Part shown: piece by piece, positions 5,324 through 10,756 of the stretch
Numbering within the stretch: the stretch's first letter is position 1
How the letters are laid out: the number at the start of each line of letters is the position of its first letter
Origin: Hyphomicrobiales bacterium
GTDB taxonomy: Bacteria; Pseudomonadota; Alphaproteobacteria; Rhizobiales; Rhizobiaceae
Assembly: GCA_900469345.1 (NCBI GenBank)
Contig: UBWZ01000003.1
Location: 142,577-206,576, forward strand
Length of the DNA: 64,000 nucleotides
Reading direction: 5' to 3'
Notes under the pieces: model-generated
Seen by the model: the letters and a program-made list of their open reading frames with translations, nothing else
Database searches by the model: none
Told to the model about the DNA's origin: nothing
Translations under genes and position numbers: made by a program

Positions 5324-6100
5324 CTAGCTCTTCTTGCGCGCCACGGGCTGCGGATCGGTGGTCAGCTTGAACTCGGCCATTTCCTTTGGCGTGAGGTAGT
5401 AGAGCCGGTCCGGCGGCGTTTCCAGCGCGTGAAACCAGAGCCCGGCTCCGATGCCCATGTCCTGCAGGTGACGGGCCACCCGCGCCGTCGTCGCCTGCGC
5501 GCTCGACATCGCCTGGTCGGCGCTCGGCCGGTCCCGGCCGCCGTTGAACACCTGGTGGACGCCGATGACGGCATCCTTTTCCGCGGTGCGGCTGACACCG
5601 CCGGCAAACACGATCGGGCAGGAGGACGCGCACAGCGCCTTCGACGCGACCCGCGTCGCAAGCTTCTTGTCGCGGATCAGCTTCGACATGGCGATCGCAT
5701 CCTCCACGGAGCCGCCGGGGGAATTCAGCGATATCACCTTCACATATTCGCCGCGGGACTCGATTTCCTGCGCGAACCGGGTCGACGCGCCGGGGTCGAT
5801 GGCACCCTCGGCAAGCAGCACGCCGCCTGGCTGCAGCTCGAACCGGATCGCCTTGCGCAGCACCTCGGCGGGGCTGGCGGGCTCCACCGGCGGGGCAGCC
5901 GGTTTTCCGTCCGTCAACGCCGGCGGCAGGACGGGCTGGTCGAGGTGCAAGGGATCAAGGCCTGGCGCCGCGGCATTCGACTGGAACACGTCGCGGATGT
6001 CGATGACAAGGAAGACGGCCGCCGCCGACAGCAGCGCATAGAAGGCGACGCGCATCAGCGCCCCGTCGTCGATCCTGCGAAGGGCCTCACCGATCCTCAT
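5324..6100 (-). CDS. Membrane-anchored ClpP-like (crotonase-fold) protein of unknown role
   Basis: 258 residues. One membrane helix (about residues 17-35) is followed by a Pro-rich linker (about 41-75) and a ClpP/SppA-like domain. Seen in the domain: SLNSPGGSVEDAI (124-136), the strand-turn that positions the oxyanion hole in ClpP-type proteins; ASKALCASSCPIVFAGG (152-168) with candidate nucleophile Ser160 flanked by Cys157 and Cys161; and GVHQ with candidate His182. This resembles the COG3904-type predicted periplasmic proteins. The catalytic assignment is inference. Its start overlaps the end of the upstream four-helix protein gene by 14 bp, so the two are probably translated together. Confidence 0.75.
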   Translation of the reverse strand: MRIGEALRRIDDGALMRVAFYALLSAAAVFLVIDIRDVFQSNAAAPGLDPLHLDQPVLPPALTDGKPAAPPVEPASPAEVLRKAIRFELQPGGVLLAEGAIDPGASTRFAQEIESRGEYVKVISLNSPGGSVEDAIAMSKLIRDKKLATRVASKALCASSCPIVFAGGVSRTAEKDAVIGVHQVFNGGRDRPSADQAMSSAQATTARVARHLQDMGIGAGLWFHALETPPDRLYYLTPKEMAEFKLTTDPQPVARKKS

Positions 6101-7415
6101 GCGTCCTGTCCCGGCGCGATTTCAGATCAATGGCCGTGATGTTGTTGTGTTCATCCAAAGTCTCGGCGGGTTCCGCTTCCACCGGGCCAAGCGGCTCCGG
6201 TGGCGTGTCCGGCGAAACCGGCCGGATGGCCGTCACGGCCCGTTGCAGCTCGAGCGCCTGCAGCAGTTCGGCCGCGGTGATCCGCTCGGCAAACGGCATG
6301 TCCTCGTCCTGGCGGCGGATGGCGCCGTGCACGACCGCTAGGATGAACACCATGACGCCGGGCAGAAGGTCGATGGAGATGGCGCCGGCCCAGGCTGGGA
6401 CGAAGTCCTGTGCATAGTGGAGAACCGCGGCCGCCGAAGACAGCGGCACGAACCGGCGCTCCAGGACGGGCGGTCGCGACAGGATCTCGTCCGCCGCCTT
6501 GGCGAGTGCCTTCGACTGTGAGGTGACCGAGGCCTTGACCGTCTCCATCACCTGGTTCTGGCGGTTGATCAGGTCAGGCGCTGCGCCGTCCGGCACGGGT
6601 GCAATGAAGCCGAGCGTCAGATCGTCGGCGGCGCGGCGGATCGACGGCGCGACCGAGGTCTGCGCGAGCGAGGTGATGATGCCGGTGAGCGCCACGGCCT
6701 CGGTGGAAAACTGGTCGGCCCGCGGTTCGATGGCGCCCGGCGCCGAAACGAGGCCACGCATCGCTTCCAGCCGCTTCTGCCCCTGTGCGAACAGATCGGC
6801 CACCTGCTCCCTCGAGGCGTTGATCCCGTTTTCGAGCCCCTTCATCTGGGCCGACATCTGCGACAGCAGCTGCACGACGCTTCCCGACCCGGTCGTGCCG
6901 GTCAGCGAGCCCGTCTGCCGCTCGACCCCCGATAGCTGTGCGAAGCGCTCGCCCGCACGCTGAATGTCCGGCAGCAGGCCCTGCACCGCAATCGCATTCT
7001 GGTGCGCCCGGTCGAGGTCAGCGGTGTAGTCTTCGACCGTCTCGGACAGATGCTGTTCGACGGCTGCGGAGCCGGCCAGAGCCGAAGCATTCAGCCAGCT
7101 CGACATGGCCATGATCATCACGGCACCGATCGCCATGACGAACAGCATGCCGGCGCGCCCGGTCCTGCTCGTCACGTGCGGGTAGAAGCGCGCCATGTAG
7201 GACCAGAAGGCGTAGATCCCGACCGAGACGGAGGCCGCATAGATGACCGCGGCAAAGAACACGGCCGTCGGCGAGCCGTCCAGGATGCTGCGGGCGCCGA
7301 GATAGGTGTAGACGCCGGAGGCGAGTGCCAGCACGGCCAGCGCAAACCGGGTCATCGTCTCCACGGCCGCGACGCCGTCGTGCAAGCGTTGGGTAGCGCC
7401 AAGCGCCATGGTCAT
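6087..7415 (-). CDS. Hypothetical four-helix membrane protein with long coiled region
   Basis: Not recognised as a named family. 442 residues: three membrane helices near 22-40, 51-73 and 88-108, a mostly helical polar region of about 220 residues (110-330) rich in Ala, Gln, Glu and Ser, a fourth membrane helix near 346-366, and a charged Pro/Glu-rich tail. This topology places the large middle domain on one side of the membrane, held at both ends. The 3' end overlaps the ClpP-like gene by 14 bp, implying a two-gene operon. A second start (MALG) lies two codons downstream. The lyase homologue upstream is read in the same direction 113 bp away. Confidence 0.7.
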   Translation of the reverse strand: MTMALGATQRLHDGVAAVETMTRFALAVLALASGVYTYLGARSILDGSPTAVFFAAVIYAASVSVGIYAFWSYMARFYPHVTSRTGRAGMLFVMAIGAVMIMAMSSWLNASALAGSAAVEQHLSETVEDYTADLDRAHQNAIAVQGLLPDIQRAGERFAQLSGVERQTGSLTGTTGSGSVVQLLSQMSAQMKGLENGINASREQVADLFAQGQKRLEAMRGLVSAPGAIEPRADQFSTEAVALTGIITSLAQTSVAPSIRRAADDLTLGFIAPVPDGAAPDLINRQNQVMETVKASVTSQSKALAKAADEILSRPPVLERRFVPLSSAAAVLHYAQDFVPAWAGAISIDLLPGVMVFILAVVHGAIRRQDEDMPFAERITAAELLQALELQRAVTAIRPVSPDTPPEPLGPVEAEPAETLDEHNNITAIDLKSRRDRTHEDR

Positions 7416-7528: not shown

Positions 7529-9109
7529 TCAGGCGATCTGCAACCGCCCCATCGGCATTTCGCCGCGCCCGAAGCCGCCAAGCGCGAAGAAGCCATCGAT
7601 GGCGTGGATCGGCGACAGGGCGATGAGATCGGTCAGGAACGCCTCTGACGACAGGTCCTGCTCGATCGCCTCCACTTCCGATGAAAGCGGCCGGTCGACC
7701 GTGTAGAAGGCTGCGTGCCGGCGCACCACGTCGTAGACCAGCTTGACGGCGCCCCCCGGTTCGTCGCCCTGGATGTCCATCGCTTGGGCTGCGAGCAGCG
7801 CCTCGAGCGCTGCAAGGCGCTTCAGGGCCTGGGTCTGGCGCTCGAAGCGCTCGATCACCAGGGGCAGGAAGGCGGCCTCGTCCTCCATGCCGCCGGCGAC
7901 GACCAGCGACTGCGCCGACACCGGATTGATCATCGACAGCACGCGCGAGAAGATCTCGCCGGCAAGCTTGATGATCGGTCCGAAACCGGTGGCGATCGCA
8001 CCCTCCGGCACGAGGTTGACCGGCAGTCCGCGCCGCTGTCCATTGCCGAGCAGGACGCAGCGGTTAAAGGAATTGCGGGCGGCATGCGCCATGCACAGGA
8101 CGGCGGATTCGAGCAGCACCGTCACGTCGAGAGGCAGCGATCCCCCCGACGTCAGCACCCGTCCCTCGACGATCACCGGATTGTCGTCGGAGCGCCCGGT
8201 CGCAGCGAGTACCTTGTGGCCGGCGCTGAGAATGCTTTCATAGACCGCGCCGAACACCTGCGGGATCATGCGCAGACTGAGCGGATCCTGGATGTGGGTC
8301 GCATGCGGCCAGTTCCAGCCCTCCGAGGCATTGAAGAGCCATTTGCCGATCATCGCTTCCCGGGCGGTGCCCACGTGCGTCACCGCAAACCATGGGTCGC
8401 GCGAGGCGCCCATCGCCCCGGAGGCCGCAAGCCCGGTCGCCAGCAGGGCCCGCACGGCACCGGCTGCCCCGCGGGTCGCCTCGGCCGCCGCCGCAAAGCT
8501 CACGGAATTGACGCTGAGCGAGGCAAGGCTGTCACGCGGCGCCATCCGCACCCTGTGAAGGCCCGCACGCCGGAACGCCTCCTCGGCGGGCAGTCGTTCG
8601 CCCTGGTACATCGCCTCGCCGACACCGGTCAGCACGGCGCCGATCTGCCCCATCAGCCCGATATCGGCACAGCCGATCGAGCCCGTTCGCCGGACCACCG
8701 GAATGACGTCGGCAGAGAGCAGATCGAGGTAGGATTGCACCAGTTCGGTCGAGCAGCCGACATACCCGGTCAGCGCGGTGTTGACCCGCAATGCCATGGC
8801 ATTGCGCACCACAGACATGGGAAATGGCTTGCCCGTGCCAAAATGATGGGCCCGCACCAGTCCGAGATTGAAGGCGTCGTACTCTTCGGCGGACCAGGCG
8901 ACGTCCTTCATGGCGCCAACGCCGGTGGTGGCGCCATAGACGGGCTGGCCGTCCGCAATCGCCTTCTCCAGCACCTGCCGCGCCGCCCGCACCCGTGCCA
9001 GGCCGCCGGGCTCCACGCCGACGGTGGCGCGTCCCTGGCCGATCGCCAGAAGCTCCGGAAAGCCGAGCGGCTGGCCGGTCAGTTCGATATGTCGTTTGGT
9101 ATGGGACAT
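7529..9109 (-). CDS. Aromatic amino acid / histidine ammonia-lyase family protein lacking the MIO triad
   Basis: 526 residues, full length for the HAL/PAL/TAL family and collinear with it: VYGATTGVG (57-65, substrate loop), GSIGCADIGLMG (143-154), SVNSVSF (about 199-205), QDPLSLRMIPQVFGA (274-288) and a DDNPVIVEGR segment. In active lyases the second motif reads G-S-x-G-A-S-G-D-L and Ala-Ser-Gly cyclises to the MIO electrophile. Here that tripeptide is absent (Cys-Ala-Asp instead), and the catalytic Tyr of Q-D-x-Y-S-x-R is Leu277. So it is a genuine family member that should not work by the MIO mechanism. No hut or phenylpropanoid genes are adjacent. Function unknown. Confidence 0.8.
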   Translation of the reverse strand: MSHTKRHIELTGQPLGFPELLAIGQGRATVGVEPGGLARVRAARQVLEKAIADGQPVYGATTGVGAMKDVAWSAEEYDAFNLGLVRAHHFGTGKPFPMSVVRNAMALRVNTALTGYVGCSTELVQSYLDLLSADVIPVVRRTGSIGCADIGLMGQIGAVLTGVGEAMYQGERLPAEEAFRRAGLHRVRMAPRDSLASLSVNSVSFAAAAEATRGAAGAVRALLATGLAASGAMGASRDPWFAVTHVGTAREAMIGKWLFNASEGWNWPHATHIQDPLSLRMIPQVFGAVYESILSAGHKVLAATGRSDDNPVIVEGRVLTSGGSLPLDVTVLLESAVLCMAHAARNSFNRCVLLGNGQRRGLPVNLVPEGAIATGFGPIIKLAGEIFSRVLSMINPVSAQSLVVAGGMEDEAAFLPLVIERFERQTQALKRLAALEALLAAQAMDIQGDEPGGAVKLVYDVVRRHAAFYTVDRPLSSEVEAIEQDLSSEAFLTDLIALSPIHAIDGFFALGGFGRGEMPMGRLQIA

Positions 9110-9196: not shown

Positions 9197-10756
9197 CTAA
9201 AGGGTGAAGGCGATGTAGAGAAGCGACAGGGCGATGACCCACAGAGCCAGTCGCCCGGAGCGGCTGTGGCGGGCTTCCGCCTTGCCGATCGCCTCGGCTG
9301 TTTCCGGATCGAAGCGCAAGCCGCTCTCGGCCATCCGCACCAGTTCCTTGTGCAGGGTCTCGGTCTTGGCGGCAATTTCCGGCACGGCCTCGGCGAGCTT
9401 CACGGCTGCCTTCACCCCGTCGCGCAGGTCCGAGACGATGCGCTTGGGGCCGAGATTGTCGCGGATCCATTGCCCGACGACAGGCTCCGAGGCCTTCCAC
9501 ATGTTGAACCGCGGATCGAGCATGCGCGCCACGCCCTCGACCACGACCATGGTCTTTTGCAGCAGGATGAGTTCCGGCCGGGTCTGCATTTCGAAAAGGT
9601 CGGTGACCTCGAAAAGCAGCGCGAGCAGCCGGGCCATCGAGATCGTTTCCGCCGGCTGGCCATGGATCGGCTCGCCGATCGCCCGGATCGCCTGGGCAAA
9701 GGCGGCCACGTCGTGGTGCGCGGGCACGTATCCCGCCTCGAAATGCACCTCGGCAACCCGCAGATAGTCGCGGGTGATGAAGCCGAACAGGATCTCGGCG
9801 AGGAAGCGTCGCTCCTTGCGCCCGAGCCGCCCGACAATGCCCATGTCGACCGCAACGACGGTCCCGTTCGGATCGACGAACAGATTGCCGGGATGCATGT
9901 CGGCGTGGAAGAAGCCGTCCCGCAACGTGTGGCGCAGGAAGGACTGGATCAGCGTTTCGGCGAGTTTCTCCAGATCGTGGCCGGCGACACGCAGCGCCTG
10001 GATGTCGTTCATCTTGACGCCATCGATCCATTCCATGGTGATGACGTCGCGGCCGGTTCTCTCCCAGTCCACCTTGGGGACCCGGAAGCCGGGATCTTCG
10101 GACGTATTTTCGGCAAGCTCGGAAAGCGCCGCGGCTTCGAGCCGCAGGTCCATCTCCATCTTGGTCGTCTGCTCGAGCGTGCGCGTCACCTCGACCGGTC
10201 GCAGACGCCGGCTCGACGGCACGAAGCGCTCCTGCAGACGCGACAGCAGGTACATGCCTTCGATGTCATGCGCAAAACGCTGGCGCACGCCCGGCCGCAC
10301 CACCTTCACGGCCACCTTGCGGTCGCCGATCATGCACGGATGGACCTGCGCGATGGAGGCGGCGGCGATCGGCTCGCCGAAGGATGTGTAGAGATCGCCG
10401 ACCGGCCGGCCGAGCGAGGCTTCGACGGCTGCCCTGGCAAGCGGCGTCGGGAAGAACGCCATCCGGTCCTGCAGCATGGACAGGTCGATCGCCCAGTCGA
10501 CGCCGACCACATCCGGCCGCGTCGCCAGGAACTGGCCGATTTTCACATAGGAGGGCCCGAGGCGATCGACGGCGCGCGTCAGCCTTTCGCTGCGGGCCTG
10601 CTTTTTGGCGCGGAAACGCGCGAGCGGATCTGCGAGCGTCTTGATGAGGCCGACCACGGGCGGCATGTCCTGCGTCGGAAGCGCTGCGACCACGCCTTCG
10701 CGCACCAGGACCCAGCCCACCCGGGCAAGCCGGAAATAAGCGCCGAGCGTGCTCAT
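9197..10756 (-). CDS. ubiB: Ubiquinone biosynthesis ATPase/kinase-like protein UbiB
   Basis: ABC1/ADCK/UbiB family protein of 519 residues, required for coenzyme Q synthesis. Family features: the KxGQ motif in YVKIGQFLATRPD (about 70-82), an Ala-rich loop AAASIAQVH replacing a kinase P-loop, VKVVRPG, catalytic-loop DGFFHADMHPGNLF and metal-binding VDMGIVGRL. A hydrophobic C-terminal helix (last 20 residues) would anchor it to the inner membrane. It begins three bases after the ubiE stop, so ubiE-ubiB form an operon, as in many alphaproteobacteria. Confidence 0.95.
   Translation of the reverse strand: MSTLGAYFRLARVGWVLVREGVVAALPTQDMPPVVGLIKTLADPLARFRAKKQARSERLTRAVDRLGPSYVKIGQFLATRPDVVGVDWAIDLSMLQDRMAFFPTPLARAAVEASLGRPVGDLYTSFGEPIAAASIAQVHPCMIGDRKVAVKVVRPGVRQRFAHDIEGMYLLSRLQERFVPSSRRLRPVEVTRTLEQTTKMEMDLRLEAAALSELAENTSEDPGFRVPKVDWERTGRDVITMEWIDGVKMNDIQALRVAGHDLEKLAETLIQSFLRHTLRDGFFHADMHPGNLFVDPNGTVVAVDMGIVGRLGRKERRFLAEILFGFITRDYLRVAEVHFEAGYVPAHHDVAAFAQAIRAIGEPIHGQPAETISMARLLALLFEVTDLFEMQTRPELILLQKTMVVVEGVARMLDPRFNMWKASEPVVGQWIRDNLGPKRIVSDLRDGVKAAVKLAEAVPEIAAKTETLHKELVRMAESGLRFDPETAEAIGKAEARHSRSGRLALWVIALSLLYIAFTL

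Follow-up and report, generated by a model that had tools for sequence, protein, structure and literature searches.

In HAL the MIO cofactor activates the amino group for departure, and ammonia-lyases need MIO to release an amino group that is otherwise unactivated. Ergothionase, the trimethylamine-lyase of ergothioneine, does without MIO though it is structurally similar to HAL, PAL and TAL, as stated in PMC13405746 (2026). The enzyme from Treponema denticola (6s7j, 6s7q) combines a HAL fold with a one-residue deletion at the MIO site, a Leu in QDPLS, a Lys-Asp pair following YGxxxGVG and a Lys at the position numbered 381 here. We have analyzed a stretch of 64,000 nucleotides from a Hyphomicrobiales bacterium (the window) containing a gene of the HAL family whose product has the same features and in all likelihood is an ergothionase, one that would remove trimethylamine from ergothioneine to give thiourocanate. 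This reading, made from sequence comparison, draws on the best PDB match, shared residues, a tree, the gene context in relatives, co-occurrence across genomes, an OpuAC neighbor and low dN/dS. An earlier note on this DNA had called the protein undescribed, which fails for the general idea, since ergothionase is already a known MIO-free lyase of HAL fold; what is new is a divergent Hyphomicrobiales lineage that looks like a form of ergothionase, together with the separation of the pathway genes into two sites and, possibly, a rule connecting loss of MIO with quaternary-amine substrates. Among the matches listed in the open-access literature no title concerned this lineage, referred to below as clade A.

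The ORF lies at positions 7529-9109 on the minus strand, starts with ATG and encodes 526 amino acids with no internal stops; residues 19-463 match Lyase_aromatic (PF00221, Pfam) with an E-value of 1.3e-88. With HutH, both the genome's own copy (L003) and that of P. putida (1b8f/1eb4), the protein shares the fold, PF00221, the YG motif, Arg280, DNP and Glu409, and it differs in having neither the Ala-Ser-Gly nor the catalytic Tyr that MIO-dependent HAL, PAL and TAL require. The former MIO site, codons 143-154 (GSIGCADIGLMG, 8648-8683, minus strand), is one residue shorter than in HAL, with GSVGASGDL of HAL aligning to GSIGC-ADI in both the phmmer alignment and the column tables, and because one residue is missing Asp149 is the ordinary Asp of the HAL family. 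At the QDxYSxR position the sequence is QDPLSLR, with Leu277 (8279-8281, minus strand) in place of the catalytic Tyr. The earlier note had recognized both losses in a full-length HAL-family protein, and the ORF, the Pfam match and the alignment agree with it, but the replacement of Ala-Ser-Gly by Cys-Ala-Asp that it described was a misalignment, GSxG-ASG-D pairing with GSIG-C-A-D one residue short. Of the flanking motifs that it considered kept, DNP and Arg280 are retained, whereas the family Asn is not: the Asn of the HAL NGT motif aligns with Ser199, and Asn201 is found two columns later, as in ergothionase. All eight of the NCBIfam models for HAL, PAL, TAL and aminomutases that the protein matches score under their curated cut-offs (218 versus 539 bits for the hutH equivalog), and a plain HAL with a variant cofactor is ruled out by motif, score and tree. 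No ergothionase model was matched in NCBIfam 20.0 by the window protein or by the ergothionase-type protein L169.

The best sequence match in the PDB is the Treponema denticola ergothionase 6s7j, with an E-value of 1.1e-53 as compared to 1.3e-39 for the best HAL. An AlphaFold model (22 sequences, mean pLDDT 78.6, pTM 0.83) falls below a confidence of 50 at residues 60-63 and 271-273, beside two active-site motifs, and chains of 6s7j occupy Foldseek ranks 1-3 (TM 0.82-0.83, 26% identity) with HALs close behind; the modeled fold alone would not decide between ergothionase and HAL. Fifteen alignment columns show one and the same residue across 19 clade A and 3 ergothionase-type rows and differ from 4 HALs, a comparison made without the Polaromonas row L036, though it belongs to the same tree group. 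Among these columns are K68, D69, N201, L277, D308 and K381, all of which the window protein carries on its MIO-free HAL fold. The Lys68-Asp69 codons (8903-8908, minus strand) are common to the ergothionase-type proteins and the Lys381 codon (7967-7969, minus strand) to these and to a further group, clade B, and neither is found in the 4 HALs compared. The window protein differs from the Treponema enzyme in having C-A-D rather than E-G-D at the MIO site and Thr62 where the latter has Arg57, and the two belong to separate clades. In a tree of 35 rows chosen from the loci obtained, leaving out second copies of the same gene, the clade A copy of G011 and 7 more rows of clade A, and 2 of clade B, clade A forms a single group with support of 100/100. 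A branch with support of 99/97 separates clade A plus the ergothionase-type rows from HAL, clade B and L004, a further HAL-family gene of the window's genome; a topology joining clade A to HAL is rejected (p-AU 1e-4) and one joining it to clade B is rejected less strongly (p-AU 0.034). With branches this long the grouping should be read cautiously. Counting against the ergothionase reading are the long stem of clade A (3.18), an identity of only 26% to the one solved ergothionase, and the low model confidence beside the two active-site motifs.

The gene context was followed in the best 80 of 260 confirmed relatives in named genomes, from 291 candidate stretches scanned. In 61 of these 80 loci the lyase heads a run of genes with all four of an amidohydrolase, an M20-type Zn hydrolase, a DUF917 protein and a urocanate-hydratase homologue in the stretch, so that the genomic link to thiourocanate breakdown expected of an ergothionase is present; the amidohydrolase alone is missing in 2, one (L107) is truncated where its contig stops, and in 16 all four are missing. 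Where present in these 80 loci, the amidohydrolase match starts 32-185 bases (median 58) beyond the point where that of the lyase ends. The four genes of Rhizobium sp. SL42 satisfy the NCBIfam models for ErtD (765 versus a cut-off of 600), ErtE (587/520), thiohydantoin desulfurase (586/440) and thiourocanate hydratase (1037/930); such scoring was applied to SL42 and to the window's own genome, and the other named loci were matched against SL42 with tblastn alone. The SL42 record annotates its lyase as 'aromatic amino acid ammonia-lyase', and such a label hides ergothioneine degradation in rhizobia. Work of 2022 on Agrobacterium radiobacter may concern a close relative of the lyase operon.

Elsewhere in the order, 12 loci from other families were fetched of 21 matching genomes, and partner genes lie within the stretch in 8 of them, some cut by the stretch end; in the remaining four (L211, L212, L217, L220) the stretch contains no partner gene at all, which counts against the ergothionase reading. 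An OpuAC binding protein of the glycine-betaine type adjoins the lyase in all 5 selected loci (E-values from 1.5e-54 to 3.4e-52), with the 3 such neighbors scored in NCBIfam passing the OsmF model, and this fits betaine uptake. The gap between lyase and ErtD leaves no room for an OpuAC gene in the 80 Rhizobium-type loci (best 80 of 260). Upstream of the window gene is ubiB (9197-10756, minus strand, TIGR01982), a housekeeping neighbor that falls within the stretch at 79 of the best 80 of 260 loci and marks the conserved site without being part of the pathway; a functional link to ubiE or ubiB is not supported, there being no UbiE or UbiB match in the 12 other-family loci. Downstream of the lyase, window positions 5324-7415 encode two proteins, one of 442 aa that matches no family and one of 258 aa for which there are weak matches of the ClpP-like kind. 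Most of the near relatives that lack local ert genes have both of these genes close to the lyase; L040 and L064-type loci do not.

Across 199 genomes of the family (G000-G198) the clade A lyase occurs in 20 (E at most 1e-100) and a thiourocanate hydratase over its cut-off in 26, the hydratase being present in 20 of 20 genomes with the lyase versus 6 of 179 others (Fisher p 1.6e-22, kinship ignored). Genera g1, g81 and g88 are listed with genomes that have the lyase and genomes that lack it, and the hydratase follows this pattern; in genus g74 it varies without any lyase (G156 versus G074). That 6 family genomes have the hydratase in the absence of a clade A lyase counts against the ergothionase reading. 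In G096 and G170 an ergothionase-type protein, 36% identical to 6s7j and 29% to the window protein, lies beside the four genes in the corresponding place. Searches of G156, G049, G152 and G068 found no ergothionase-type lyase, a query of the G096/G170 type returning weak HAL-family matches that are 26-32% identical. Four genomes (L168, L171, L172, L173) hold the four ert genes, and no lyase of clade A or of the ergothionase type turned up in them; there the supply could come from another first enzyme or from uptake of thiourocanate itself.

In the window's own genome the four partner genes are absent from the lyase site and are found together on contig C18 (L120 6486-12024), with ErtD, ErtE, thiohydantoin desulfurase and thiourocanate hydratase scoring 769, 574, 597 and 1040 bits, respectively, all over the NCBIfam cut-offs. 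The 19.9-kb C18 stretch holding them contains no HAL-family match. The lyase of relatives adjoins this ergothioneine-utilization set whereas here the two are split, and this lack of adjacency counts against the ergothionase reading, as does the transporter beside the C18 cluster, whose binding protein is SBP_bac_11 and not OpuAC. The genome yields 4 HAL-family matches in total. Besides the window gene these are a member of clade B, L004 and an ordinary HutH (L003, at C38:56212-57615) with a urocanate hydratase next to it, so that clade A and the ergothionase type are represented by the window gene alone. Less likely, though it too counts against the ergothionase reading, is that the clade B paralogue is the enzyme feeding the C18 genes.

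Ergothioneine being the trimethylbetaine of 2-thiohistidine, departure of trimethylamine would yield thiourocanate. Its leaving group is already a quaternary trimethylammonium, so that acid-base catalysis together with binding of the thioimidazole should suffice without MIO, and with such a leaving group both the tripeptide that forms MIO and the catalytic Tyr of HAL could have been lost. The acting residues are probably Tyr58, Lys68, Lys381 and Glu409, common to 6s7j and the clade A rows compared, with a single Arg at 68 elsewhere; we presume this catalytic set from the alignment. We infer that thiourocanate would then be converted to glutamate by the C18 products in the order thiourocanate hydratase, thiohydantoin desulfurase, ErtD and ErtE, the latter two acting as hydantoin-5-propionate amidohydrolase and N-carbamyl-glutamate amidohydrolase, respectively. 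It is unlikely, if still the best of the alternatives, that a trimethylamine-lyase of the same chemistry acts mainly on another betaine, be it ergothioneine sulfonate, S-methyl-ergothioneine or hercynine. The deep separation of clade A from the Treponema enzyme in the tree would accommodate this, and an ergothioneine-sulfonate pathway is cited for Agrobacterium radiobacter in PMC13405746. However, the genome's own partners score above the model cut-offs for thiourocanate hydratase (1040 > 930 bits) and thiohydantoin desulfurase (597 > 440), and with the S-methyl models their scores fall short (752 < 880 and 275 < 450); with hercynine as substrate a desulfurase would not be expected.

The ergothionase reading also has to accommodate the absence of local partners. 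A gene that has lost its pathway role in the window lineage, to serve another function or persist as a leftover, would explain why the 16 loci of the best 80 of 260 whose stretches lack all four genes include the window's nearest relatives, and yet we regard it as very improbable. Contig C18 of the window's genome carries intact copies of the four, and 13 of the 16 named genomes without local partners have, outside the stretch, a thiourocanate hydratase at least 90% identical to the window genome's own copy. Of these 13 elsewhere stretches 5 were fetched, 4 of them with all four genes and one (L178) with three, its amidohydrolase unmatched. Selection is likewise similar for the two kinds of locus, with a median pairwise dN/dS of 0.130 for copies without local partner genes (136 pairs) versus 0.135 for the remaining copies (1986 pairs), counting pairs with dS of 0.2-1.2 only. 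Against the ergothionase reading, L040, a named genome without local partners, has a fragment of a thiourocanate-type hydratase, and L045 (a MAG) and L052 have the lyase with only an ordinary urocanate hydratase.

For the window gene versus 8 relatives dN/dS is 0.05-0.14, in keeping with purifying selection and with the intact, conserved frame that the earlier note had seen. C147-A148-D149, Leu277, Lys68 and Lys381 occur in 81 of 81 sequences (the best 80 of 260 relatives plus the window), the named relatives having been selected by the patterns DIGLMGQ[IV] or [IV][QH]DPLS[LV]RM, which pre-select some of the conserved letters; 21 clade A rows (20 genes) from a pattern-free search have C-A-D as well, one of them as C-G-D. 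Sequencing error, which that note had named as a possible refutation, and decay are thereby ruled out, given a motif common to 80 relatives and the low dN/dS. Across the order, 28 of 397 genomes carry a clade A lyase, and the 12 members from other families all have the deletion, Leu277 and Lys381, with K68 in 11 and Arg in one. Position 147 is Cys in 8 of them, Ala in 2 and Thr in 2, and with Ala or Thr in 4 of 12 the Cys of C-A-D is unlikely to be a catalytic residue. One clade A gene (L133 2014-3717, in G011) has an internal insertion within a single open frame, its two matched pieces lying 114 bases apart and query residues 340-360 being matched twice. Least credible of all is a HAL fold that has lost catalysis and serves in binding or regulation, for which the missing MIO and catalytic Tyr might be cited, since both are missing too in ergothionase, an active enzyme with charged residues in common with the window protein, since in G096 and G170 the equivalent position is taken by proteins of the ergothionase type, and since gene context and co-occurrence with ergothioneine-degradation genes make the binding role once suggested unlikely, leaving that note's other suggestion, an enzyme with different chemistry, as the likely one.

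The clade B gene (L121 7054-8511, minus strand, contig C27 of the same genome, G000) is a second MIO-free member of the HAL family. Its product reads GSIGAGDL at the MIO site, with the deletion, and has Leu at the Tyr site and Lys381 but no Lys68. An OpuAC-type ABC transporter is near this gene on C27, and of 11 clade-B-like loci 5 have an OpuAC binding protein, with none found in the other 6; clade B is possibly a lyase for another betaine. Taken with the ergothionase reading of the window protein, the absence of MIO in a HAL fold suggests a rule, in that it would point to a quaternary-amine substrate, and loss of MIO may go with such substrates. We would suggest, tentatively and as somewhat less probable than otherwise, that the MIO-free HAL branch is a broad group of betaine-lyases with a quaternary amine as leaving group, comprising two ergothionase lineages together with clade B, the latter acting on an undescribed betaine. 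The fourth HAL-family gene of the genome (L123 6468-7955, contig C18 of G000) aligns as GSAGYLTH at the MIO site, with three residues missing, and its product may also lack MIO.
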